Source: a virus. Taken from it: 20,063 nt of DNA. Within the stretch, counting starts at the first letter, position 1. Each line of letters opens with the position of its first letter. The notes beneath the pieces were generated by a model that worked only from the letters and a program-made list of their open reading frames with translations, was not told where the DNA came from and ran no database searches. The stretch spans positions 1 through 20,063 of IMG/VR virus record IMGVR_UViG_3300043409_002570; one strand, 5' to 3'. Positions 8,848-20,063 of this stretch are shown in pieces. The position numbers and the translations under genes were made by a program.

Positions 8848-10199
8848 GGGTCTCCAAAGAGTGAGAGTTGGCGGGTGGATTCATAGGCGGCGGCGGCCTC
8901 ATCGGCCTCCAAGCGGAGGGCGTAGGCAATGCGGGCAGCCGCGATCTCAAGGTAGGCGGGGTCAAGGTCGCACCCGACAAAGCGGGCACCCTCCAAGATG
9001 GCGGCCTTGCCCGTGGAGCCCGACCCCATGAAGGGATCTAGGACTAGGCCACCGGGCGGGGTGACTAGGCGCACAAGGTGGCGCATGAGCTCAGTGGGCT
9101 TGACCGTGGGATGATGGTTGCGCACCACCTCACGGGTGCGGGATGCCCCTGCCCGGGGGTTGTCGAGGCCCGCGGTGCCCTCTTGGCGGGAGGTCGCATC
9201 CGCGCCCGTGCTGGTGGCCAGCTCTTCGCACCCCTCCTCCCGATCGGCGGATGAGGTCTTGGCGCAATAGAAGAAGCGGGATGCCGAGCCTTGGTCACCA
9301 CCCATGCCAATTCCCACGCCCGGCCTCAAGCCATGCAAAAACTCACGCTGACGGGGTTGATTTTGCACATTTTTGTTTCCCGTTCCGCTTGTGACTTGCG
9401 GAAACCCCGCCAAGACCTCCGGGGAGCCATCATGCATGAGGTTGGCGGGCCAGCGGCCTTGGGTGCTGCCATTGATGCGCAATTCTTTGGTTGCGGCCAT
9501 GTTGAATGAGGATGAGGTGCCGATGCCATTGCAATTGCGCACCGTGCTCTCCGCCCCTATCCTACACCCATCCACATTGATGGCACCCGTGCCATGCTTC
9601 AAGAGGTTGGCGGCCACGGTGCCCTCCAAGGGCTTGCGGGCCATGAGGATCGGCTCCCACGCGGGCTTCAGCGCCGTGCCCCATCCTTCCCATTTTGCGG
9701 CCTCGGGCGTGGCGGGGCTGGTTAGGTCAACCTGCGAGGGCATCGGATGCAGGCCTTGCGAGTAGATGCTGCGAGCGGGCGACGAGTGCGCGCCGATGAC
9801 CTCCCGCGTCGCTCCCGCTGCCCGATCGATCGCCTTCGACACGTCGTGCGACTTGGGGAAGCCCGACCCGTACAGCCACATCATGCAGTCGCGGATCTCC
9901 CACCCCGCGTCTTCGATGGCGACCGTCAGCCGGTGGAAGGTGCGGGTGCCTCCAAAGGCCAAGAGATAGGCTCCGGGCTTGGCCACCCTCAAGGCCTCCG
10001 CCCAAAAGGTGACACCGGGCACGCCGCGATCCCACTCCTTGCCCATGAAGCCCCGCCCGCTGGTGGCATCCTCCAAGGTGGTGGTGGGGCCGCTTGCGAG
10101 ACCATACGGGGGATCGGTGACAATGGCATCCACCGAGGCCTCCGCCATCTTGGCCATGCTCTCCCGGCAATCCCCGAGGTGCAATGCAAAGCGGCTCAC
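8844..10199 (-). CDS. Beta-class DNA methyltransferase (N6-adenine or N4-cytosine)
   Basis: The 451-residue protein has catalytic motif IV near the start (DPPYG, Asp29-Pro30-Pro31-Tyr32) and the S-adenosylmethionine-binding motif I near the end (DPFMGSGST, 388-396), preceded by a KPTELMRHL segment. The IV-then-I order defines beta-class amino-methyltransferases, which methylate adenine N6 or cytosine N4; DPPY favours adenine. The target-recognition region lies between about residues 160 and 350, so the DNA site cannot be read. The start is GTG overlapping the upstream stop. Bases about 9740-9960 (residues 79-153) are richer in TCG and GAC codons than the rest, suggesting a recombined segment. 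It could protect phage DNA from host enzymes or from the downstream nuclease. Confidence 0.85.
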   Translation of the reverse strand: MSRFALHLGDCRESMAKMAEASVDAIVTDPPYGLASGPTTTLEDATSGRGFMGKEWDRGVPGVTFWAEALRVAKPGAYLLAFGGTRTFHRLTVAIEDAGWEIRDCMMWLYGSGFPKSHDVSKAIDRAAGATREVIGAHSSPARSIYSQGLHPMPSQVDLTSPATPEAAKWEGWGTALKPAWEPILMARKPLEGTVAANLLKHGTGAINVDGCRIGAESTVRNCNGIGTSSSFNMAATKELRINGSTQGRWPANLMHDGSPEVLAGFPQVTSGTGNKNVQNQPRQREFLHGLRPGVGIGMGGDQGSASRFFYCAKTSSADREEGCEELATSTGADATSRQEGTAGLDNPRAGASRTREVVRNHHPTVKPTELMRHLVRLVTPPGGLVLDPFMGSGSTGKAAILEGARFVGCDLDPAYLEIAAARIAYALRLEADEAAAAYESTRQLSLFGDP

Positions 10200-11173: not shown

Positions 11174-11559
11174 GGTGCCACCTCAAGGGCGGCAACCAAG
11201 GCCTCGGCCTCGGTGGCAGCGCGAATGCCGAGGTTGATAGTGTCACCACTCTTGAGCCTTGCTCCTTTCACATACCAGCCCCCATCGGGCAGCAGGTAGA
11301 CCCCTTGGCCCCATGCCTTCCGCACCAAGGCCAAGAGGCAACCAAGGGTGGCGGGGTCGGTGAGGTCGGGGAGAGAGCCTTGGACGCACTCGGCAATGTA
11401 GGACAGATCGGCATAGTATCCCACAACATAGCCATCACGGTCGCATCGGGTGACCCGCAAGCCTCTATCGGAGAGCATCCCGGGCATCCACCGCCACCGC
11501 TTGCACGCCACGGCACGGCGGGCCAACTCTTTGAGATTCTCTAGGGGTTTGGTGCTCAT
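11170..11559 (-). CDS. Hypothetical phage protein with ELARRAVACKRWRWMPGM start
   Basis: The 129-residue product begins with a conserved-looking segment, LKELARRAVACKRWRWMPGM, followed by DPATLGCLLALVRKAWG and a C-terminal EAEALVAALEVA. From memory this layout is common among unnamed phage proteins, often near recombination genes, but I know of no established function. I chose the ATG at 11559 because it overlaps the upstream stop (ATGA); a longer frame reaching 11676 would sit inside that gene. There is no membrane segment or metal-binding pattern. A DNA-processing accessory role is inferred only from the neighbours. Confidence 0.6.
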   Translation of the reverse strand: MSTKPLENLKELARRAVACKRWRWMPGMLSDRGLRVTRCDRDGYVVGYYADLSYIAECVQGSLPDLTDPATLGCLLALVRKAWGQGVYLLPDGGWYVKGARLKSGDTINLGIRAATEAEALVAALEVAP

Positions 11560-12533
11560 GGCTCGACCTCTTCTTCGGGTGGGGATGTTTCGCATAGACC
11601 ATAGACGGAAGAGCACCCCGATCCATCTTCGAACATAAATTGGGTTTGCCGCCCGCCCCGTGAGGTCTTGGCCCACTCCACCGCGGCTTCAATGCCATGG
11701 GTGGTGTGAGTGATGTTGACTTTGTCAAACGCTCTCACGGTCTTGGCTTGAATAAAGGTGCTATTTCCCCGGAGGCTACCTTGACTCACCAGCTTCTCCC
11801 ACTCGGCCACCCGCTTGATCTCCTCTGGAAATCTTTGTGCGATCTCGGTGAGCTCACTTTTTCGCACCATCACGCAAGGCATGCAACCAACGCGGCCCAT
11901 GCCCTCAAAATAGAGGGGATTGGGCTTGCATCGGCGGTCTTGGAGATAGGCAAAAACCTCCAATGCTGACCACCGCAAGATCGGGCGATAAGACCAGAGC
12001 CCCGCCTCCTCTTGGTCGGGCGGGCCAAAATCCCGCTGCCACTCCACGGCGGTAGACCTTGCGTAACTCTCATCCGCTCGCACTCCTAACCAGCTCACCA
12101 CGCGATCGTGGGTCTCAAGCGCGGCCATTTGCACCTCTCGGATGGGCTCCATTTTGAGAAATTCAGTGCAAAACCGTTGGCCCGACGATGGAAAGACCCC
12201 TTTCCACAAACAAAGGTCAAGAAACGGATTGCCCGTTGGGTGCAACACCTCAAGGGCGCGGGCTGCAACCTCTGGTGGGTAGTTGGCCTCTGCAAAGGCG
12301 CGGCGGCGGGCTATGCGGGCCGTGAAATCCGCCTTTACATGGTCAATCTTGATCTTGGGAAAGTGCTCAAGCTCCGCAATGTAGGCATAAGTTTTGGGGT
12401 GCTCATGCCCCGTATCCGCAAAGATGGCTCGCAAGTTGGGCGTTTGCCGCTCAAGGGCCAAGAGGAGGGTGGCGGTGCTATCCTTGCCACCGCTAACATT
12501 GACAATGTTGATCGTGGAAATCGAGGAGCTCAT
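11556..12533 (-). CDS. PAPS-reductase/ATP pyrophosphatase-like protein
   Basis: The 325-residue product opens with the PP-loop of adenine-nucleotide alpha hydrolases, NVSGGKDSTAT (Ser14-Gly15-Gly16-Lys17-Asp18-Ser19). It continues with IFADTGHEHPKTY and LGVRADESYARS, as in the phage and prophage branch of the phosphoadenosine phosphosulfate reductase family. Later Cys residues (VGCMPCVM, then CSSVYGLCE) could bind metal. The family activates substrates with ATP, for sulfur transfer or DNA and tRNA modification, and sulfate reduction itself is unlikely in this setting. The real substrate is unknown. It starts with ATG behind a GGGAGG site, overlapping the previous stop. Parts of the gene look slightly AT-richer than its neighbours. 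Confidence 0.75.
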   Translation of the reverse strand: MSSSISTINIVNVSGGKDSTATLLLALERQTPNLRAIFADTGHEHPKTYAYIAELEHFPKIKIDHVKADFTARIARRRAFAEANYPPEVAARALEVLHPTGNPFLDLCLWKGVFPSSGQRFCTEFLKMEPIREVQMAALETHDRVVSWLGVRADESYARSTAVEWQRDFGPPDQEEAGLWSYRPILRWSALEVFAYLQDRRCKPNPLYFEGMGRVGCMPCVMVRKSELTEIAQRFPEEIKRVAEWEKLVSQGSLRGNSTFIQAKTVRAFDKVNITHTTHGIEAAVEWAKTSRGGRQTQFMFEDGSGCSSVYGLCETSPPEEEVEP

Positions 12534-12910
12534 GGCGCACCTCCCGCTTCACGCTTCACGCGGGGCCGCCGCCTAGCAATGTTGGCCGCCAACCTTGCGG
12601 CGCTCGGGTAGTAGTAGACCCCCGCCTTGACCCGTGGCCATGCCTCAATGGCCGCTTGGAGGGCCACCGCGGCCCGGATGGCATCAAGCTCCACGGTGGG
12701 AGCCTCACCAGCCTCCAATGCCCCGCGGCGGAGGCCTAGCAACCCTTCCCACCACTCATGGAGAAAGGCGCTCTTGAGCGTGCTCCGCACTCGCACCGCC
12801 AAGGTTTGGCGGGTCACTCCAAGGCCGCGGGCTAGGTGGGCTTGCGTGCCATAGATCTCCGCCACCCGTGCACGGATGATGCCCGGAGCCTTCTCATAGG
12901 TTATGCCCAT
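12530..12910 (-). CDS. Helix-turn-helix-like protein
   Basis: In the 126-residue product, residues about 21-42 (GTQAHLARGLGVTRQTLAVR) read as a helix-turn-helix: a first helix, a Gly turn and a recognition helix starting TRQT. The C-terminal part is Ala-rich and then strongly basic (ARRRPRVKREAGG), suitable for DNA contact. It could be a regulator or a DNA-binding accessory of the recombination genes. No sensor domain is visible. The ATG lies 10 nt inside the end of the RecT gene, and the stop overlaps the PAPS-reductase-like gene start. Without a structural comparison I rate the HTH as likely but the role as unknown. Confidence 0.55.
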   Translation of the reverse strand: MGITYEKAPGIIRARVAEIYGTQAHLARGLGVTRQTLAVRVRSTLKSAFLHEWWEGLLGLRRGALEAGEAPTVELDAIRAAVALQAAIEAWPRVKAGVYYYPSAARLAANIARRRPRVKREAGGAP

Positions 12911-13761
12911 GGAAACTCTCCCGCGCTTTCATCTTCCAAGGCCGCATCCATGCCATCACCGCGGGCATCCACCACGGGGGTGGCCTCATCCTCATTGGGC
13001 ACCACGGCGGGCGGCGGCGGGGGCACCATGCGGGCACCACCAACGGCCACGGGCACCGCCTCCATCTTCACCCGCTCGGGCTGGTAGAGAGGAGCCTCCG
13101 CCTTATCGGCCAGCTCCAAGGCATCGGCCATGGAGACCGAGCGGGGGAGATACTTGGCAGCGCGGCGCAACACGGTCTTGCGTGCCATCTCCGCCCAATC
13201 GGTTGCCCATGGGCCGCTCTTGCCCGCCCGTGCCCGGTTGCGGATAGCGTCAACATCCTCCTTGGCCATCCACTCAAAAACGTGCTCTCCGCTGGTGAGC
13301 ACCGCGTGGCAATAGACCCCAAGGATCGGATCGGCTCCCTTGCGGCGGAGGTTGGGGTGGTGGCGGAAGGGCGGGGTGCTCTCCAAGGTGACCTCAAAGA
13401 GATCCGAATCATAGACCACGCGGGCTGAGATAGCAGCGATCTCCCCGGAGCGGCGGATGAGCTGCAAAAGCCCTTGGTAGCCCACAATGAGGGTGCACTC
13501 GGTGCCATGGGGCACAAGGTAGCAAGAGCCCAGCACATGGGGCTCAAGGCCGAGTTGGCTTGCCATCATGATGGCGGCCATCACGCTAGGCGGGGAGCAC
13601 TTGGAGAGCCCGGGGTTGGTGCGGAAGGCCGTGAGGGCAAGGCGCACCATGCGATCGGGCGTGAGGTGCGCGGGCAGGGCCGCCCGCATTTGCTCCTTGG
13701 TGGAGGCGGAAAGGAGCCACTCGGCTACGGGGTGATCTTGGCGGGATAGTTGGGTGCTCAT
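12901..13761 (-). CDS. recT: RecT-family single-strand annealing protein
   Basis: The 286-residue product matches the RecT core: NPGLSKCSPPSVMAAIMMAS, QLGLEPHVLGSCYLVPHG, and ECTLIVGYQGLLQLIRRSG (residues about 49-106). RecT proteins coat single-stranded DNA and anneal it to complementary strands, working with a partner exonuclease that makes the overhangs. Here that partner is the YqaJ-type gene just upstream. I chose the ATG at 13761, behind a purine-rich GAGAGAGA site, over an ATG 17 codons earlier in the intergenic hairpin region. The C-terminus is Pro-rich and then acidic, ending SAGEFPWA. Length is normal for the family. Confidence 0.9.
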   Translation of the reverse strand: MSTQLSRQDHPVAEWLLSASTKEQMRAALPAHLTPDRMVRLALTAFRTNPGLSKCSPPSVMAAIMMASQLGLEPHVLGSCYLVPHGTECTLIVGYQGLLQLIRRSGEIAAISARVVYDSDLFEVTLESTPPFRHHPNLRRKGADPILGVYCHAVLTSGEHVFEWMAKEDVDAIRNRARAGKSGPWATDWAEMARKTVLRRAAKYLPRSVSMADALELADKAEAPLYQPERVKMEAVPVAVGGARMVPPPPPAVVPNEDEATPVVDARGDGMDAALEDESAGEFPWA

Positions 13762-13812
13762 GCGGGTCTCTCTCTGGTGGTGGCCCATGGTGGGCCGTGG
13801 GGAAGGGGGCAA

Positions 13813-13831
13813 GGCGGGGGTTGCACCCGCC
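13813..13831 (-). promoter_or_regulatory. Hairpin between the exonuclease and recT genes
   Basis: GGCGGG (13813-13818) pairs with CCCGCC (13826-13831) around a 7-nt loop containing TTGCA, again TGCA in the loop. A second hairpin, GGCCCA/TGGGCC (13782-13796, 3-nt loop), lies nearer the recT start. They fill the 78-nt gap and may act in RNA processing or in differential expression of recT. No T-run follows. Confidence 0.4.
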
Positions 13832-13839
13832 CCTTGGGG

Positions 13840-14886
13840 CTACTCCCCTTTGCCCTTGCGCGGTGCGGTCACGCGGCAAGACGGGCTCACGGTGGTCACC
13901 TTGCGGAAGGCGGCCGCGATCTCCGGGTGGGCAGCCTCAAGCCCCTTGGTGTCGAGGCCCACCCGCTCCGATGCGGCGGAGAAGGCGCTCTTGACACCAG
14001 AGGGCGCGGCCAGCTTGGCGGCCACCTTGTGCGCCTCAAGGATCACCCGCTTGGCCTCATCTTGCTCCGCCTCCAAGGCTTTGATCTCCGCTCCGAGGGC
14101 CACATAGCGATCCATGGCAGCGGCCACCGCGGGCTCCGCTTCCGCTGGCCCTTCCGCCGCGGGGTGGATGGTGCGGGCGATATCCTCAAGCTCATCCGCA
14201 TCCGAGGCATCCGGGAGGCGGCCTTGGGGGTCTTGCACCCATGCCATCACGCTCTTGGCCACGGTGGTCACAATCTCCGCCGCATCTCGGTTAGCCTCAA
14301 TGGGGATGAGGTGGAATTGGTAGACCGTCCACACCGCAAGCCACCCAAGGGGGCACCCGGTCACGGCCAGCTGGGCTTGCACTTGCCACCAATAGGCAAG
14401 GCGGAGGTCACCAGCGGGCACGGCGGAGAAGTCTCCATCGGCAACGGCCTCCCAATCGGAGCGGGAGCGGTCAAGCTTGGCCTCCACGGTGGCCAACACG
14501 CGGGAGCTATCCACATGATAGATCAAGCCATCGGGCGTGGCGGAGGCTGCCCCATCGGAGAAGGCCCGCTCATTGCCTCTGAGCTCACACCCGGGGGCAA
14601 GGCTAAGGGAGCGAAGGGCGATCTTGAGGATCACCTCCTCCGCATCTCGGCCCGCTGCCATGGCTTCATTGCCCGCGGGCGGAGCCACCAGCGCCAAGAG
14701 GTCACGCTTGGAGAGGATGAGGCCAAGGAGGCCACCGTAGGGGCTCACGCCGATGGCACGGGCCACCTCGGATGCGCCAAGGGTGGTGCCACGGGCGCGG
14801 TGCCACTCCGGGCTATCCTTGGGGAAGGCGGGCATGGCCACCGCGGAAACATTGGGCAGGATGAGGTCAAACATTGGAGTATCCAT
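13840..14886 (-). CDS. YqaJ-type phage exonuclease (lambda-exonuclease-like)
   Basis: The 348-residue product has the YqaJ/lambda exonuclease layout: WHRARGTTLGASEVARAIG near residues 28-46, then the metal site Asp119 (ATPDGLIY) and Glu135-x-Lys137 (ATVEAKL), then a YWWQVQAQLAVTG helix. It belongs to the PD-(D/E)XK superfamily and would resect double-stranded DNA ends to give tails for RecT. The C-terminal third (about residues 240-348) is helical and charged, probably an added region beyond the core nuclease. The start is ambiguous: ATG at 14886, or ATG at 14874 (residue 5); both overlap the upstream gene. It lies directly upstream of recT, separated by a 78-nt hairpin-containing gap. Confidence 0.85.
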   Translation of the reverse strand: MDTPMFDLILPNVSAVAMPAFPKDSPEWHRARGTTLGASEVARAIGVSPYGGLLGLILSKRDLLALVAPPAGNEAMAAGRDAEEVILKIALRSLSLAPGCELRGNERAFSDGAASATPDGLIYHVDSSRVLATVEAKLDRSRSDWEAVADGDFSAVPAGDLRLAYWWQVQAQLAVTGCPLGWLAVWTVYQFHLIPIEANRDAAEIVTTVAKSVMAWVQDPQGRLPDASDADELEDIARTIHPAAEGPAEAEPAVAAAMDRYVALGAEIKALEAEQDEAKRVILEAHKVAAKLAAPSGVKSAFSAASERVGLDTKGLEAAHPEIAAAFRKVTTVSPSCRVTAPRKGKGE

Positions 14887-15283
14887 CCGCGATCTGAGTG
14901 AGGGTGGTGGCGGCCTCTTGGGTGTAGACCATGAGCTTGGCCAACACGGTGGTGAGAGGCTCCGAGGTGGCCAGCGGCTGCCAATCCGCGATCGCGCTGG
15001 TGGTCATGGTGCTCATCACGGGGAGCACGCTGGTGGCGGGCAATCCTGCCCAACCCTTCTTGGTGGGCTCCACGGCGCGGGAGAGGTGGAGGTGGAGAGC
15101 GCCCTTGGTGGTGGAGCTCGTGCTCACATTGAGGCGATAGACCACCGAGGCTCCGGGCACGGGGATGGTGGTGCCGAAGGCCGCATCTCCAATGGAGCAA
15201 AGCGTGGGAGCCCACTCATGCTCAGTGGTGGCAAAGGCCTCATGGAGAAGAGGCAAGAGGATGGCGAGGGTAACATGATCCAT
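14867..15283 (-). CDS. Hypothetical early protein, 138 residues
   Basis: The product is unrecognised. It begins MDHVTLAILLPLLHEAFATT and has a Thr/Ser-rich middle (YRLNVSTSSTTKGALHLH) and end (VYTQEAATTLTQIADG). It lacks Cys clusters and clear membrane segments, although the N-terminus is mildly hydrophobic. The ATG at 15283 is chosen because it sits behind a GGAAGACCCGCC leader nearly identical to those of two neighbouring genes. A frame extending to 15457 would run through the upstream gene. It overlaps the start of the exonuclease gene by about 20 nt, so the two are probably co-expressed; an accessory role in end processing is speculative. Confidence 0.55.
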   Translation of the reverse strand: MDHVTLAILLPLLHEAFATTEHEWAPTLCSIGDAAFGTTIPVPGASVVYRLNVSTSSTTKGALHLHLSRAVEPTKKGWAGLPATSVLPVMSTMTTSAIADWQPLATSEPLTTVLAKLMVYTQEAATTLTQIADGYSNV

Positions 15284-15315
15284 GGCGGGTCTTCCTTTGC
15301 CCTTGCGGGCGGCTT

Positions 15316-15333
15316 GCGGGGGTGCATCCCCGC
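15316..15333 (-). promoter_or_regulatory. Leader hairpin with TGCA in its loop, before the 138-residue gene
   Basis: GCGGGG (15316-15321) pairs perfectly with CCCCGC (15328-15333) around GTGCAT. It includes the exact 15-bp copy of the 15704-15718 element and lies 33 nt upstream of the ATG at 15283. No matching promoter is evident directly before it. Confidence 0.5.
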
Positions 15334-15347
15334 GGGTGAGTGCTCTT

Positions 15348-15366
15348 GGGTGGTCTTGCACCACCC
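15348..15366 (-). other. Hairpin in the gap before the 138-residue gene
   Basis: GGGTGGT (15348-15354) pairs perfectly with ACCACCC (15360-15366) around a 5-nt loop. It follows the stop of the zinc-binder gene by about 28 nt. No T-run accompanies it on either strand, so it is not a typical terminator. Confidence 0.4.
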
Positions 15367-15393
15367 GGAGGGCTTGGCCCGAGAGCGGGGCTG

Positions 15394-15687
15394 CTAGGCG
15401 GGGAGCATTTGAAGGTTGGCAATGCGGAGCGCGGCGGCCTTGCCCTTGGGAAAGCACTTTTTGCAGAACATAGCCTCATCCGCGGTCAACCAATCGGCGC
15501 TGATGCGAACGCTCAAGCCAAGGGTAATGCGACCATGGTTGCAAGAGCTATTGACCACTCTCGGGCTACGCTTGATCTGGTGAAACATGCCCGTGGAGCT
15601 GCGGCCTACCGCACAAGGGAAGACCTCGCTTGATTTGGCAAGCTCAATGGCGGGGGTGAGTTCAATGTTGGCAATTGTGAAGTTCAT
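15394..15687 (-). CDS. Small Cys/His protein, putative zinc binder
   Basis: The 97-residue product has Cys/His pairs that could hold zinc: Cys49-x-His51 (SSCNHGRI) and Cys75-x-x-Cys78 (MFCKKCFPKGKA), with extra Cys25 and His36. A CxH ... CxxC spacing with a basic FPKGK knuckle fits a small treble-clef or zinc-ribbon fold, often used for nucleic acid or protein binding. I recognise no named family. It is the first gene after the 15.75-kb promoter and has a clean GGAGACCCGCC leader before its ATG, with a 15-bp hairpin repeat 17 nt further upstream. Its position suggests an early regulator or host-interaction protein, which is inference. Confidence 0.6.
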   Translation of the reverse strand: MNFTIANIELTPAIELAKSSEVFPCAVGRSSTGMFHQIKRSPRVVNSSCNHGRITLGLSVRISADWLTADEAMFCKKCFPKGKAAALRIANLQMLPA

Positions 15688-15703
15688 GGCGGGTCTCCAA
15701 TGT

Positions 15704-15717
15704 GGGGGTGCATCCCC
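15704..15717 (-). promoter_or_regulatory. Leader hairpin with TGCA in its loop, before the zinc-binder gene
   Basis: GGGG at 15704-15707 and CCCC at 15714-15717 face each other around GTGCAT. It sits at the predicted 5' end of the transcript from the 15.75-kb promoter. The 15 bases 15704-15718 recur exactly at 15318-15332. Confidence 0.55.
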
Positions 15718-15731
15718 GTGGTGTGAGAGAG

Positions 15732-15760
15732 CTACTAGGCAAGCGTTTACACGGTGTCAA
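15732..15760 (-). promoter_or_regulatory. Leftward sigma70-like promoter before the zinc-binder gene
   Basis: On the minus strand TTGACA (15755-15760) is separated by exactly 17 bp from TAGTAG (15732-15737). The -35 is perfect and the -10 is weak. Transcription would start near 15725, 38 nt before the ATG at 15687. The element aligns without gaps over 41 bp with the promoter at 16764-16792, which is the main reason to believe both. Confidence 0.65.
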
Positions 15761-15782
15761 CACTTACTTGCGCCCCTTTGCA

Positions 15783-15959
15783 TTATTTTTCGATCTTCCG
15801 CATGGCCCACGCTGCCAAGGCTTGAGCCTCGGAGAGGTTGGCTCCCGCGCCACGGGCCGCGTCAACGGAAGCGGAATAGGAGCGGAGATCGCTGCCCGTC
15901 CGATCGTGAGTGATCTGAGCTGCCCGGATGGCACGGGCCGCCGCCAAGGTGCTGGCCAT
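15783..15959 (-). CDS. Small hypothetical protein, 58 residues
   Basis: This short gene has an ATG at 15959, a strong GGGAGG ribosome binding site 8 nt before it, and a TAA at 15783. The product (begins MASTLAAARAIRAAQITHDR, ends AWAMRKIEK) is helical, Ala-rich and soluble, with a basic C-terminus. It starts 3 nt after the stop of the 158-residue gene, in the style of the rest of the operon, and ends 22 nt before the -35 box of the next promoter. I recognise no family. The ribosome binding site and spacing are the main support for it as a real gene. Confidence 0.6.
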   Translation of the reverse strand: MASTLAAARAIRAAQITHDRTGSDLRSYSASVDAARGAGANLSEAQALAAWAMRKIEK

Positions 15960-15962
15960 GGG

Positions 15963-16439
15963 CTAGCCCTCCCAAGAGGTGGTGCGATTCATGCGGAGGC
16001 AATCCCGCACCCTATCGGAGAGCCCCGCGGCCTCCGCCCCATCCCAAAGGGCACGGTTGCGGGCGGAGAAGGTGGGATGGTCAACACGGTCTTGGTAGAG
16101 GTCTTCGGTGTTGGCCATGAGCGCCAAGGCAATAGCAACAGCGGGGGAGGTGGGGGCCAGCAGGGGCGCGGCAATGGCGGAGGCGATCCCCGCTTGGTTG
16201 GTGACCTCACGGGCGCAAGCAAAGGCATAGGCCACATGGCGGGCGCGGCCTATCTTGGTGGTGGAGACCGCGGCGCAAGCGGCCTCCAAGCGGGCGATCG
16301 TCGCATTGGCCATGGCAGCCTCCGCCGCATTGATGAGCTCCGGGGGGCTGGTATGGTTCAAGGCATCAAAGATGGCTTGGGCGGTGGTGGTGGCAAGCTC
16401 GGCAATGGCGCGGGCGGTCTCAGGGGTCTCGATGGTCAT
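15963..16439 (-). CDS. Hypothetical helical early protein, 158 residues
   Basis: The product is almost entirely Ala-rich helix by inspection (ARAIAELATTTAQAIFDALN, then AAEAAMANATIARLEAACAA, then PAVAIALALMANTEDLY), with a polar C-terminal segment ending RMNRTTSWEG. A pair of hydrophobic stretches near residues 82-108 could be buried helices rather than membrane segments. No catalytic or metal motif is visible. The ATG sits behind a perfect GGAGACCCGCC leader. It lies in the unit driven by the 16.78-kb promoter, between the 68- and 58-residue genes. Function unknown. Confidence 0.55.
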   Translation of the reverse strand: MTIETPETARAIAELATTTAQAIFDALNHTSPPELINAAEAAMANATIARLEAACAAVSTTKIGRARHVAYAFACAREVTNQAGIASAIAAPLLAPTSPAVAIALALMANTEDLYQDRVDHPTFSARNRALWDGAEAAGLSDRVRDCLRMNRTTSWEG

Positions 16440-16450
16440 GGCGGGTCTCC
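16437..16450 (-). promoter_or_regulatory. Shared ribosome binding leader GGAGACCCGCC-ATG
   Basis: The 14 bases from the GGAG to the ATG of the 158-residue gene are identical to those of the zinc-binder gene (15685-15698). The 138-residue gene has the same with one extra A (15281-15295), and recT has a close variant (13759-13772). GGAG is 7 nt from the ATG in the exact copies, so this sequence decides the start of each gene. Confidence 0.65.
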
Positions 16451-16506
16451 TTGGAGGGGGTGGGGTTGGGTTAGGCGGCGAACCGGGCGGGGGCCAAGCC
16501 CTGCGA

Positions 16507-16713
16507 CTAGTAAGCGGCGCGGCGACGCTCGGGCTTGCCGATGAACCCGGGGTTGTATCGAGCGAAGCGGGGGCGGGCGTAGGTCATGATGAAGGCGATC
16601 TGAGCCGCGCCCTTCTCGCCTTCCTCCTCGAGCTCCATGAACAACTCGTTGAGCTCGTTGATCGAAGCGGTGAGGGCGAAGTGGCGGAGGCGGTCTTGGG
16701 CGGTCTTGTTCAT
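16507..16713 (-). CDS. Small hypothetical protein with unlike codon use, 68 residues
   Basis: The product is acidic and helical in the middle (INELNELFMELEEEGEKGAA), then basic and aromatic (TYARPRFARYNPGFIGKP) with an ERRRAAY end. I chose the ATG at 16713, which has a GAGAG site upstream and lies about 20 nt after the promoter-proximal hairpin. An in-frame ATG at 16743 would sit in that hairpin. Codons end strongly in C or G (TTC, AAC, GAG, ATC) and include TCG and CTCGAG sequences that are scarce in its neighbours, so it may come from another source. It is the first gene of its transcription unit. Family unrecognised. Confidence 0.55.
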   Translation of the reverse strand: MNKTAQDRLRHFALTASINELNELFMELEEEGEKGAAQIAFIMTYARPRFARYNPGFIGKPERRRAAY

Positions 16714-16732
16714 TTGCGCGGCTCTCGGTGGC

Positions 16733-16749
16733 GGGCGGTGCATTCGCCC
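16733..16749 (-). promoter_or_regulatory. Leader hairpin with TGCA in its loop, before the 68-residue gene
   Basis: GGGCG (16733-16737) and CGCCC (16745-16749) enclose a 7-nt loop containing TGCA. It begins about 8 nt after the predicted transcription start of the 16.78-kb promoter and ends 20 nt before the ATG at 16713, matching the layout at 15.7 kb. Confidence 0.5.
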
Positions 16750-16763
16750 TTGGTGTGAGGAGG

Positions 16764-16792
16764 TTACTAGGTGGCGATTGACGCGGTGTCAA
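16764..16792 (-). promoter_or_regulatory. Leftward sigma70-like promoter before the 68-residue gene
   Basis: TTGACA (16787-16792) and TAGTAA (16764-16769) on the minus strand are 17 bp apart. The sequence from 16752 to 16792 matches 15720-15760 at 29 of 41 positions by hand alignment. Within it TTGAC and GTCAA form an inverted repeat that could be an operator. The -35 lies 8 nt after the primase gene stop codon. Confidence 0.65.
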
Positions 16793-16800
16793 GTGTCACC

Positions 16801-19545
16801 TCACGGGATTTCACTATCTCCCCGATCGTGCTCTTCCCCGCACAATTCCGATAGTTGGCGGCTCAAGCGGTAGCACCATGGGCTCCCGCCCCCGAGATAG
16901 ATCTTGTGGGTCGATCTTCCCTCGCCCTTCACCAGCTCACCACGATCCAAGAAGGTGGCCACCGTGGCCTTCACATTGAGCCCCCGGCCCTTGAGGTAGT
17001 CGTGCAAGGCATCGGGCACGAGGTAGACCGCCCGCTGGCCAAGCTCCTCCCGCATCCTGCCAATGATGGCCATGGAGTTCTCAGGTGCGTTGGCGTGCCA
17101 TTGCATCCGCGCCCGATTGGAGGCCACCCAAGCCACCACGCCCTCAATGGCATGGGCAGCCTTATCGGCCTCCGCTCCCTTGGCCAAGATCGCCTCAAGC
17201 TCCGCCTTGGAGAAGAGCTCGGAGATATCGCTTTGCGCCTTCCACTCAAGCCCAACAGCCTTGCGGAAGAGCCACCATGCCACCTCCATCTCCGCAAGGT
17301 AGAGCGCGATCCGTTGGATGGCTTCCGTGCCGCTCATGGCGGGAGGCCGTGCCAAGGCATAGGTGGCCGCCCGCTTCTCCACCATGCCCCGGAGCTCAGC
17401 CCGCTCCTCCGCGCTGGTGGCCAGCACCCAATCCACAAAGGCCCGACCCGCAACCCCATAGTTGACCTCGGTGCCCTTGGCCGCCGCTTGGAGCGCCTTC
17501 TTGGTCTCCGGGCTATCTCCGCCAAAGATCGGCCCCCATACGGTCACGCATCGGGCCACCAGCCCGCCCGCCTCTCGCATCCCTGCTAGCGGGGTCTCAC
17601 CCGTGGAGATGAGCACGCTCTCATAGGTGGCGCTCTTTTGGGTGCCCGTGATGGTGCCCCGCGCCTTGCCCCGCCCTTGGGTGATCTCATACACCCAATT
17701 GCCCGCCGCCGTGAGATCGTCGGCTAGTTGGCTCTCATCTCGGAAGATGGGCAGCCCCCGCATGGCACCCGCGATCCGCTCGGAGGCGGTGTTGGTATCC
17801 TTCCAATTGCCCACAATGCGACCCGTGCCCCAAATGGAGGCCGCAAGCTTCAAGGCCGTGGTCTTGCCCACTGAGCTATTGCCCGAGAGGTCTAGAGCGA
17901 AGGCCGAGCCCACGGGCGCGAAGATGCGGAGCAACGGGGGCACCACCGCCGCGGCCATGGCATAGGCTGCCCGTGGATGCGCCTTGAGCACGGGCTCAAC
18001 AGCAGCCCGCCACCCTTCTACGCTCCCGGAGGCCACCACCGCCTTCACGGTGTCACGCTGCTCTCCCTCAAGGAGCCCCATGCGGAGATCCATGGAGGCC
18101 GCGCCTTCCGCAAAATGCACCCCATCAAAGCCCCGCACAAAGGCGGAGCCATCGGGGAGCCACCCGGTGGAGCTGGCCAAGGCCACCGTGGGCCACTTGG
18201 GCTTGCGACCCAATCGGGCAGCCTCCGCCTCATCTTGATCCATGAGGGCGATCGCCCCATCAATGTAGTCAACCAAGACCTTGGCGGTGTTGCTACTAAC
18301 GGGCAGCCCCTTCCGCCGCCAAGCCACCAGCAGCCGCGCTTGGCAAGCCTCCGCCGCGGGCACCTCCTCGCCCTCCGCCCGTTGGCTACCATGGGCCAAG
18401 GTCACATAGTGATCCCGGGTCTCAAGGCTCACGGCCCGACCTCGCACCCAAATTGCGGGGTAGCATACTGAGACCCACTCGGTCTTGCCCTTGGTGGTCA
18501 CCACCTTCCGCAAGAGGTGGCCCCGCTCCTCTCTCCACCCATCGGGCATGGGGTGAATCATCTCCCGCGGGCTCACTACCTCCACCGCACTCTCCACCTC
18601 TTGCGGGGCCATTGGAGCCTCTACCGCGGGCCGACCTAGCAAGCCCACTCGCACCGCCTCAAGCCCAAGGGAGGAGTGGAGATCGTTCCAATCGGTGCCA
18701 CGCTCCGGGTGACCCGCTGGCCACTCGGGCACTAGCAGCCGCGCCCCTACCGCATCCGCCGCGGCCTTGCCCGCCTCAATGCCCACATTGCGATCGCTCT
18801 TGAAGTCATCATCCGCCGCCACCACCAGCGTGGCCCGCGGGGCCTTGGCCCGTGCCATCTTGGCCACCGCCATGAGCTGGCCACTATCCATGGCGCAAAG
18901 AACCGTCCACCCCGTGGCCTCCGCAATGGAGAGCCCCGTGGAGTAGCCCTCACAAATGGCGATCGTGCCCGGGAGCCCCTTGATCGCATGATAGGTGCCC
19001 GCCCGCCGCGCCCCCTTCTCATAGGTCTTGACCCAACGCTCACTCTCACGCTCCCACCAAATCCTTTGGAGGTTGACCACCGCACCCGTGCCATCCTTGA
19101 GCGGGAGGAGGAGCGTGGTGCCCTTGCGATAGCTGCCCGGAGCCGCCGCCACGCCCTTGGTGGCAAGGTAGCCAAAGGAGCCCGAGGCCTTGCCCGCCTC
19201 CTCCACCACCGAGAGCACCCGCACCGCGGCCTCACCAGCCTCCTTGGCCCGGGCAGCCTCACGGGCCTTGCCCGCCGCCACCGCCGATGCATGGAAGGCT
19301 TGCACCTCCGCCGCGCTCATCTCTGAGCTGGCCCCGCGGTGGCTCCACTTGGTCGCCCCCTGCCCATCCGCCCAATTGCCGAATGCGCCCGAGGCCACCC
19401 CATCGGAATGGAGGAGATACCAGCCCGCCTCTTTGCCCTTGCCCTCCACCTCGCAACGGTGGATCTGACCATCCGCCACCAGCTCACGGATCACCAGCCC
19501 ACGCCCGCGGGCCGCCTCCACAAAAGATGCCTCTACCTCTCCCAT
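16801..19545 (-). CDS. Primase-helicase with Toprim and DUF927 domains
   Basis: The 914-residue protein reads as a fused replication enzyme. Residues about 190-290 form a Toprim domain: Glu199 in AICEGYSTG and Asp245-Asp247 in VVAADDDFKS, the metal site that makes primers. Residues about 330-720 match DUF927-type helicases: Walker A in SGNSSVGKTTA (554-564) and Walker B in IFRDES (Asp603-Glu604), with ITGTQKSATYESVLISTGE downstream. The N-terminal 60 residues are a small region before it, and the last 200 residues are helical. The ATG at 19545 follows a GGAGG 5 nt upstream. Such proteins prime and unwind phage or plasmid DNA. The iteron-like array 0.3 kb upstream is a plausible origin partner. 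Confidence 0.85.
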   Translation of the reverse strand: MGEVEASFVEAARGRGLVIRELVADGQIHRCEVEGKGKEAGWYLLHSDGVASGAFGNWADGQGATKWSHRGASSEMSAAEVQAFHASAVAAGKAREAARAKEAGEAAVRVLSVVEEAGKASGSFGYLATKGVAAAPGSYRKGTTLLLPLKDGTGAVVNLQRIWWERESERWVKTYEKGARRAGTYHAIKGLPGTIAICEGYSTGLSIAEATGWTVLCAMDSGQLMAVAKMARAKAPRATLVVAADDDFKSDRNVGIEAGKAAADAVGARLLVPEWPAGHPERGTDWNDLHSSLGLEAVRVGLLGRPAVEAPMAPQEVESAVEVVSPREMIHPMPDGWREERGHLLRKVVTTKGKTEWVSVCYPAIWVRGRAVSLETRDHYVTLAHGSQRAEGEEVPAAEACQARLLVAWRRKGLPVSSNTAKVLVDYIDGAIALMDQDEAEAARLGRKPKWPTVALASSTGWLPDGSAFVRGFDGVHFAEGAASMDLRMGLLEGEQRDTVKAVVASGSVEGWRAAVEPVLKAHPRAAYAMAAAVVPPLLRIFAPVGSAFALDLSGNSSVGKTTALKLAASIWGTGRIVGNWKDTNTASERIAGAMRGLPIFRDESQLADDLTAAGNWVYEITQGRGKARGTITGTQKSATYESVLISTGETPLAGMREAGGLVARCVTVWGPIFGGDSPETKKALQAAAKGTEVNYGVAGRAFVDWVLATSAEERAELRGMVEKRAATYALARPPAMSGTEAIQRIALYLAEMEVAWWLFRKAVGLEWKAQSDISELFSKAELEAILAKGAEADKAAHAIEGVVAWVASNRARMQWHANAPENSMAIIGRMREELGQRAVYLVPDALHDYLKGRGLNVKATVATFLDRGELVKGEGRSTHKIYLGGGSPWCYRLSRQLSELCGEEHDRGDSEIP

Positions 19546-19602: not shown

Positions 19603-19627
19603 GGCCGCTTGGTGCAATCTTGCGGCC
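19603..19627 (-). promoter_or_regulatory. Leader hairpin with TGCA in its loop, before the primase gene
   Basis: GGCCGC (19603-19608) and GCGGCC (19622-19627) are perfect inverted repeats around a 13-nt loop that reads ATTGCACC on the minus strand. It would form the very 5' end of the transcript if the candidate promoter at 19634-19662 is used. Confidence 0.45.
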
Positions 19628-19633
19628 TCCTCC

Positions 19634-19662
19634 ATGATGCCACCTTGGCGGCCCCCCGTCAA
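19634..19662 (-). promoter_or_regulatory. Possible leftward promoter for the primase gene
   Basis: TTGACG (19657-19662) and CATCAT (19634-19639) lie 17 bp apart on the minus strand, giving a start near 19627 and a leader of about 80 nt before the primase ATG. A second TTGACG lies at 19668-19673. The -10 match is only four of six, so this is weaker than the other two promoters. Confidence 0.4.
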
Positions 19663-19877
19663 GATAGCGCGTCAACAGACACCACCTTGAGCGCCTACCC
19701 CCCTCCATGGCGCTCAAGGCGGTGATCCGTGGGGCCAGCCCAACCAACCAGAGTTCCCGGAGGGTTGCCACCTCCATGAGGGCGAAACCTTCCCAACCTT
19801 CCCAAAACCAAAAGCGAAGTGGGAAGAGAGAGAATGTGACCTAGAGCCTTTGATCTTTGGGCATTTTTTGATCCTTC

Positions 19878-19904
19878 TTCCCACTTTTCCCACTTTTCCC
19901 ACTT
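19878..19904. repeat. Three perfect 9-bp tandem repeats (iteron-like)
   Basis: TTCCCACTT occurs three times head to tail at 19878-19886, 19887-19895 and 19896-19904. An inverted copy lies at 19817-19825, and AAGTGGGAAGA (19817-19827) is inverted with TCTTCCCACTT ending at 19886. Degenerate 9-bp copies (TTCCCAACC, TTCCCAAAA) lie at 19790-19807, and a further inverted variant (AACTGGGAAGA) lies near 19996-20006. Such arrays bind initiators or repressors; here it lies upstream of the primase gene. Confidence 0.75.
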
Positions 19905-20063
19905 ATATTGCCTTATGTGCGTGCGCGACCCCCTCCCCCCCTCTCACCAGCTCACCCCCTCAATGCATCTCTATAAAGCCCTCTTGGTGTGGGTAAACTG
20001 GGAAGAAGCCCGTTTTTGGACCCTATCCCGTTGCATTTGCTCGAGTTTTTCTCTGTCCAGTGG

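Follow-up and report, generated by a model that had tools for sequence, protein, structure and literature searches.

Early promoters joined to stem-loops are known from T4-type phages, where Arbiol et al. in 2010 and Comeau et al. in 2014 reportedly described them as PeSLs (promoter early stem loops). One source that cites them (PMC4503421) links such early promoter-stem-loop units to the shuffling of small genes and describes composite promoter-terminators. A second system, the ESAS of cluster K mycobacteriophages, consists of repeated intergenic SigA-like promoters that overlap an inverted repeat (PMC11373665, PMC3203893, PMC12699233); in these ESAS/SAS sources, Pope et al. saw little support for the repeats forming an RNA hairpin.

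The DNA analysed here, which we call the window, is the whole 20,063-base virus record. Its leftward half carries early genes, namely a primase-like gene, small ORFs, a YqaJ-type nuclease, recT, a Holliday junction resolvase and a DNA methyltransferase. Three IMG/VR contigs of 32–33 kb (G001, G002, G003) contain the same region and form, with the window (G000), the close clade (clade 1). An alignment-based RecT scan yielded a distant clade (clade 2: L146, L147, L149, L049, L050), with best segments 60–69% identical. With the window included, the data comprise only four close and about four distant contigs, all metagenomic.

Like PeSLs, the module studied here joins an early promoter (recognised from sequence only) directly to a stem-loop. 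It is repeated between small early ORFs, with conserved borders and exchanged adjoining ORFs, and PeSLs have been proposed to mediate just such modular shuffling. The differences are that the stem-loop is no terminator, as it has no U run, that the phage is not of the T4 type (~33 kb, 64% G+C) and holds few copies per genome, and that the other border is a three-way-junction RNA. No T4-type relative was among the phage matches listed; the related contigs, of 32–33 kb, carry YqaJ/RecT and a DUF927 primase. With ESAS the module shares SigA-like promoters with 17–18 bp spacing that stand ahead of small genes from differing families in the non-structural half. However, ESAS arms span the whole promoter as a 15–17 bp inverted repeat (TTGACATGCATACAG...CTGTATGCATATCAA), whereas here there is just a 15-bp TTGAC-N5-GTCAA palindrome of other sequence over the −35 box, and compensatory changes are present here. 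The SAS, GGGATAGGAGCCC, had 0 matches at gene starts in the window with up to 2 mismatches. Morons, too, are small accessory genes with their own promoter-like site that differ between relatives, but here the border is fixed, the gene is replaced and there is no terminator. Structured mRNA leaders such as those in Rfam are alike in having a conserved 5'-leader RNA fold, although no Rfam 15 family matches here. The sequence-only reading knew of no described element matching the module; as the above systems show, similar layouts exist. The element works like PeSLs and ESAS and is a member of neither, because it has no terminator and no SAS, belongs to a different phage group and includes an extra junction RNA.

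Table 1. Features of the promoter-hairpin and junction-RNA borders and of the neighbouring genes, in window coordinates.
Feature	Position	Strand	Remarks
Hairpin before recT, GGCCCA-CCA-UGGGCC	13782..13796	-	short; from sequence and fold
recT	12901..13761	-	PF03837, 7.9e-47
H4, second junction RNA	13807..13855	-	over YqaJ stop codon; from H3-only model and independent fold
138-aa gene	14867..15283	-	behind H3; weak homologue of clade-2 132-aa gene
Hairpin H3b, GCGGGG-ATGCAC-CCCCGC	15316..15333	-	leader of 138-aa gene; 15-bp exact copy of P1 hairpin
H3 junction RNA	15342..15386	-	directly behind slot B; outer stem GCUCU/AGAGC; arms a, b
Slot B, 97-aa ORF	15394..15687	-	a different, unrelated ORF in each of the four phages
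P1 leader hairpin, GGGG-ATGCA-CCCC (or loop ATGCAC)	15705..15717	-	in all four close genomes
Predicted transcript starts	~15725 (P1), ~16757 (P2)	-	from sequence
Promoter P1	15732..15760	-	TTGACA 15760-15755, 17-nt spacer, TAGTAG 15737-15732
Palindrome over P1 −35, TTGACACCGTGTAAA	15760-15746	-	TTGAC-N5-GTCAA type
Upstream block of P1, GATCGAAAAAT..GGGGCGCAA..GTG	15761..15795	-	common to clade-2 promoter
38-bp tract	16474..16511	-	end of slot A; exact match to L146 3836-3873, E 6.6e-13
Slot A, 68-aa ORF	16507..16713	-	unrelated ORFs in G001/G002 and in G003
P2 leader hairpin, GGGCG-AATGCAC-CGCCC	16733..16749	-	in all four close genomes
Promoter P2	16764..16792	-	TTGACA 16792-16787, 17-nt spacer, TAGTAA 16769-16764; conserved in G001, G002, G003
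Palindrome over P2 −35, TTGACACCGCGTCAA	16778..16792	.	imperfect; candidate operator
Primase-like gene	16801..19545	-	Toprim, DUF927, Cch HTH
Module P3 before primase	19603..19662	-	TTGACG, 17-nt spacer, CATCAT, then GGCCGC-AAGATTGCACCAA-GCGGCC
Primase-leader TGCA hairpin	19627-19603	-	13-nt loop; part of P3

The two leftward promoters of the sequence-only reading, TTGACA with a 17-bp spacer and TAGTA(A/G), can be read directly where it had placed them. P2 begins 8 bp behind the primase stop and is followed by an ATG at 16713; P1 is located between the 58-aa and 97-aa ORFs, with an ATG at 15687. The pattern TTGACA-N17-TAGTA occurs twice in the window, against once in 200 shuffled windows. It is found twice in each of G000–G002 and once in G003, whose second promoter (P2) has an N18 spacer and TAGAAG. 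Only 3 of the 6 positions of each −10 box agree with the E. coli consensus. We infer that P1 and P2 are active promoters used early by the host RNA polymerase. The ungapped match of 29 out of 41 positions, with which the two promoters had been presented as a duplication, is present but weak alone, since 8 offsets in the window reach it (0–1 per shuffle in five shuffles). A gapped alignment of the two promoter-leader regions scored 45, where the maximum of 1000 shuffles was 31. Neither P1 nor the clade-2 promoter had a match in 50,697 annotated phages, scans of genome contigs for RecT and for the promoter pattern found no match, and IMG/VR DNA pattern scans for the promoter beyond both clades mostly hit coding or unrelated sequence.

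A DNA-binding regulator probably recognises the palindrome over each −35 box. Allowing one mismatch, a search for TTGAC-N5-GTCAA found it only at P1 and P2 in G000, G001 and G002 and only at P1 in G003, where the P2 copy is more degenerate. The 126-aa protein encoded behind recT (window 12530-12910) appears helix-turn-helix-like by eye, with Pfam YdaS below the cut-off only, and is a candidate reader of the palindrome.

At P1 and P2, the hairpin follows about 8 nt after the predicted start and the start codon lies 17–19 nt beyond it, in agreement with the proposed G/C hairpin with a TGCA loop within ~10 nt of the start. Four TGCA hairpins with a stem of at least 5 occur between 13.7 and 16.8 kb, against 0.22 expected; the 15-bp copy in front of the 138-aa gene reads CGGGGATGCACCCCC. 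In folding energy, the P1 and P2 leaders are not unusual (z −0.25 and −0.37), and the P1 hairpin has a competitor in a pairing with the start region. As these energies are ordinary and the 29/41 match is weak, support for the module comes mainly from its conservation in relatives. In the P2 hairpin of G001 both partners of the closing pair have changed, giving A-U in place of G-C, and the TGCAC loop is kept in all four genomes; in the P1 and P2 leader hairpins, compensatory change is confined to this one stem pair. The further TGCA hairpins claimed before the 138-aa gene, recT and the primase gene all exist, but they are not one element: the promoter-linked hairpins (P1, P2, P3, H3b) are simple, with loop (U)UGCAC or AUGCAC, whereas those at 15366-15348 and, before recT, at 13831-13813 are each one arm of a three-way junction. 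Module P3 is nearly identical in G003 despite unrelated sequence upstream there.

Further structures lie near these leaders. Between P3 and the primase start codon, a terminator-like hairpin with a T run (19596-19575), conserved in relatives, is a possible attenuator. Upstream of the primase, window 19780-20063 is non-coding, conserved and more A+T-rich, with 9-bp repeats (TTCCCACTT three times, AACCTTCCC twice), and is possibly a replication origin. The 138-aa leader has, immediately ahead of its ribosome-binding site, a short GCAA-loop hairpin, GCCC-GCAA-GGGC (15299-15310); the clade-2 H4 leader behind YqaJ has GGTC-GCAA-GACC (L049, about 1122-1133) with a different stem at a similar position. 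In place of the short hairpin before recT, clade 2 has other stems, GGTC-GCAA-GACC and GCTGC-AGCT-GCAGC.

Four possible functions of these sequences were considered and rejected. A lambda nut site is a boxA followed by a hairpin; here, the boxA-like GCTCTCTCACAC before the hairpin lies between the −10 box and the predicted start and would therefore be absent from RNA made at P1 or P2. By eye, the UCUC block could pair with the ribosome-binding site in most leaders, yet most of the block is upstream of the predicted start. Kissing interactions between the palindromic UGCA loops do not agree with G001, in which the junction loop has changed to CGCA without a change in the partner. As for TGCA as a DNA methylation site, the tetranucleotide is only mildly under-represented.

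Exchange of the ORF behind the leader is the most telling property of the module and was absent from the sequence-only reading. Behind P1, DNA homology between the close relatives ends at the start codon and returns at the stop codon. The DNA identity of the slot B ORFs is 0.47–0.50, against 0.46 for shuffled sequences, whereas the borders are 0.89–1.00 (P1 leader) and 0.96–0.98 (leader behind the slot) identical in G001/G002, and 0.72 and 0.80, respectively, in G003. Three different first ORFs occupy slot A, behind P2, with a like relation between borders and ORFs. The slot products are mutually non-homologous, except for those of slot A in G001 and G002 (95%); the neighbouring 58-aa (88–98%) and 158-aa products are conserved. 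Most slot products had no database match, and that of slot A had no relative in other contigs. For the slot B product of G003, matches were found to functionally uncharacterised PHROG families (E 5.6e-9), so that at least one cassette is part of a wider phage gene pool. Both G003 leaders contain GGATGAGACCATG, which occurs nowhere else in that genome and suggests homogenisation between the two borders. Gene content also changes away from the borders: window 11570-12525 is missing in G001, where its flanks are joined. A 325-aa ORF at window 11556-12533, likewise missing in G001, has an SGGKDS motif and appears PAPS-reductase-like by eye.

Directly behind slot B, the leader folds as a three-way junction with arm a, GGGC-CAA-GCCC, and arm b, GGGUGG-UGCAAGA-CCACCC (15366-15348, the TGCA hairpin). 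This junction is the minimum-energy fold of each H3 sequence alone (window, G001, G003, L146, L147, L149). Its 15 pairs are kept to 98.9%, eight of them with changes on both sides, at 42–53% identity between the clades. The covariation score was reached by 0 of 500 shuffles, and sliding the partner by one column lowered pairing to 46–52%. These counts rest mainly on two clades, with few independent genomes. MAFFT misaligned the outer stem between clades, and its register was restored with placeholder letters after the fold had been seen in single sequences. The 138-aa gene and a clade-2 132-aa gene behind the same junction RNA are 25% identical (E 4e-4); this weak homology places the junction RNA at an orthologous position in both clades.

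A covariance model built from H3 sequences only finds H4 in all four close genomes (E about 2–5e-4 in single-genome searches) and in distant genomes (E 5e-4 to 0.14). The H4 sequences alone also fold as three-armed junctions, with arm b GGCGGG-UGCAACC-CCCGCC (13831-13813), and the arm b stems covary across the H3 and H4 sites. The arm b loop is UGCRANN in most loops inspected, the exceptions being CGCAAGA in G001 H3 and UUCGCCG and UUCGUCG in L146/L147. Most inspected arm loops fit the T-loop motif (UNCRANN, with U1, C3, R4 and A5, closed by G-C); the H3 loops of L146/L147 do not, and in G001 H3 the U1 is changed. Rfam 15 yielded no family match, neither for positions 13700-17000 with E values of 1 or below nor at the gathering score across the whole window and the relatives. 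The compensatory changes show that the junction is kept by selection as a predicted RNA fold. Stem covariation, which the sequence-only reading had named as a check, is thus found in the junction stems of the recT and 138-aa leaders, while the P1/P2 leaders have it at one pair only. The junction RNA, described in none of the libraries searched, is the most original part of the module.

In the distant clade, the primase gene of L146, L147 and L149 is directly followed by a promoter with a fixed block, CTANNN-N5-TCACACC, a hairpin (GACGGG...CCCGTC) and a start codon. The first ORF behind it differs between L149 and L146/L147. The search of relatives thus recovered the layout in every close relative found and a promoter with hairpin in the distant clade. 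As a repeated arrangement of promoter, hairpin and start codon, the module holds up as a conserved leader of early genes, but the distant-clade hairpin has no TGCA; the −35 palindrome is absent there too. The upstream block of P1, GATCGAAAAAT..GGGGCGCAA..GTGTTG, matches the clade-2 promoter with a score of 31, reached by 0 of 1000 shuffles. Since it is common to both although P1 lies behind another gene, the regulatory unit must have been duplicated or moved.

A trace of exchange between the clades is found directly behind the slot A ORF, where the 38-bp tract ends within arm b of the L146 junction RNA. Apart from one of 39 bp in the methyltransferase gene, no longer exact match between the window and L146 was found. 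Among the clade-1 genes scored, the slot A ORF has the most clade-2-like codon use. L146 was obtained from the same metagenome (3300044641) as L007, whose RecT is identical to that of the window, which indicates that the two clades meet. We regard the tract as a truncated piece of a clade-2 junction RNA, left as a recombination scar; on the simplest reading, slot A was acquired from a clade-2-like phage along with part of the border. The 39-bp match (window 9935-9897, leftward; L146 8243-8281) is apparently a second recombination tract between the clades. The methyltransferase gene looks mosaic, with a homology gap at 9285-9410 relative to G001.

We read the module as the conserved border of an early-gene cassette, in which ORFs are swapped between a promoter-hairpin and a junction RNA, and estimate the probability of this reading at about 0.6. 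At the level of sequence comparison, the borders are conserved in place, the ORFs are replaced and one replacement carries a foreign piece of junction RNA. A sigma-70-like, host-type promoter would start transcription about 8 nt before the G/C hairpin, so that the mRNA would begin with a short tail and the hairpin and reach the start codon 17–19 nt later. The second border, behind slot B, is in this reading the H3 junction, which lies in the leader of the conserved 138-aa gene; H4, the other copy, extends over the end of the YqaJ gene. Exchange may rest on recombination within the borders, either homologous or over short stretches of homology, perhaps with help from the phage's own RecT/YqaJ pair. 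Our first choice for the leader hairpins and junctions is an action in the mRNA, either in protecting its 5' end or in setting decay or translation, so that any inserted ORF would be expressed alike; the −35 palindrome would be read by a DNA-binding regulator. More tentatively, the junction may belong to a new class of three-way-junction leader RNA, with two copies per genome and a T-loop-like UGCRANN arm b. Together with the promoter-hairpin leaders, it would mark the borders of swappable genes, protect or tune the mRNA 5' end (e.g. by stalling a 5'-to-3' exonuclease) and provide homology for exchange across clades, a combination that we consider possible rather than probable.

The main rival explanation is a protein-binding role of the RNA: hairpins and junctions would be bound by a protein, of the phage or of the host, that either represses translation or modifies RNA polymerase. 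This would be a trans-acting regulon like those of coat proteins and nut sites, with the exchange of ORFs as a by-product. It would account for loops being kept as stems change (TGCAC in the promoter hairpins, UGCRANN in most junction-arm loops inspected) and for the location of all conserved copies in the leftward early region, with none in the structural half. Yet the loop does vary, both in the junctions (CGCAAGA in G001; UUCGCCG and UUCGUCG in L146/L147) and in the clade-2 promoter hairpin with its lack of TGCA, the ribosome-binding site is outside the hairpins, and no candidate RNA-binding protein was found. A nut-like version is further opposed by the position of the boxA-like pyrimidine block, upstream of the predicted start and so outside the P1/P2 RNA. 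We consider this explanation doubtful.

It is unlikely that the dyads act in the DNA, as operators bound by a repressor or activator, rather than as RNA elements; the sequence-only reading had listed an operator role for the hairpin. The restriction of TTGAC-N5-GTCAA over the −35 box to P1 and P2, the pairing of promoter and inverted repeat in cluster K ESAS (PMC11373665) and the near symmetry of H3b as DNA are in its favour. In the hairpins, however, the distance separating the arms varies by 1–2 nt, TGCA often does not sit at the centre, the arms change in sequence without losing their pairing, and two sites fold three-armed, unlike a dimer site. The −35 palindrome is the better candidate and may well be an operator, yet only the close clade has it.

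A role as transcription terminators or attenuators at cassette ends would explain why the hairpins are placed where genes end and begin, a feature shared with the composite promoter-terminator PeSLs cited above. We consider this very unlikely, as a search for intrinsic terminators (G/C stem and U run) found nothing terminator-like at P1, P2, H3 and H4, and only hairpin 19596-19575 before the primase has this character. Least probable of all are chance hairpins by ordinary promoters in G/C-rich intergenic DNA, kept through close kinship: despite the composition-typical folding energies of single leaders and the weak 29/41 identity, they are already disfavoured by the conservation of borders against replaced ORFs, the compensatory changes at 42–53% inter-clade identity and the model matches to a second site in all close genomes.

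How phages gain small early genes and express them at once is an open question, to which PeSLs and ESAS are partial answers. The phages analysed here, an unrelated group, show the same principle, with clean ORF replacement, a cross-clade scar and a structured RNA with strong compensatory change. The switches are kept and the genes between them replaced, which bears on how such phages trade small genes and still express them correctly. The borders also offer sequence handles for finding small early ORFs in uncultivated phages, a likely reservoir of anti-host functions.
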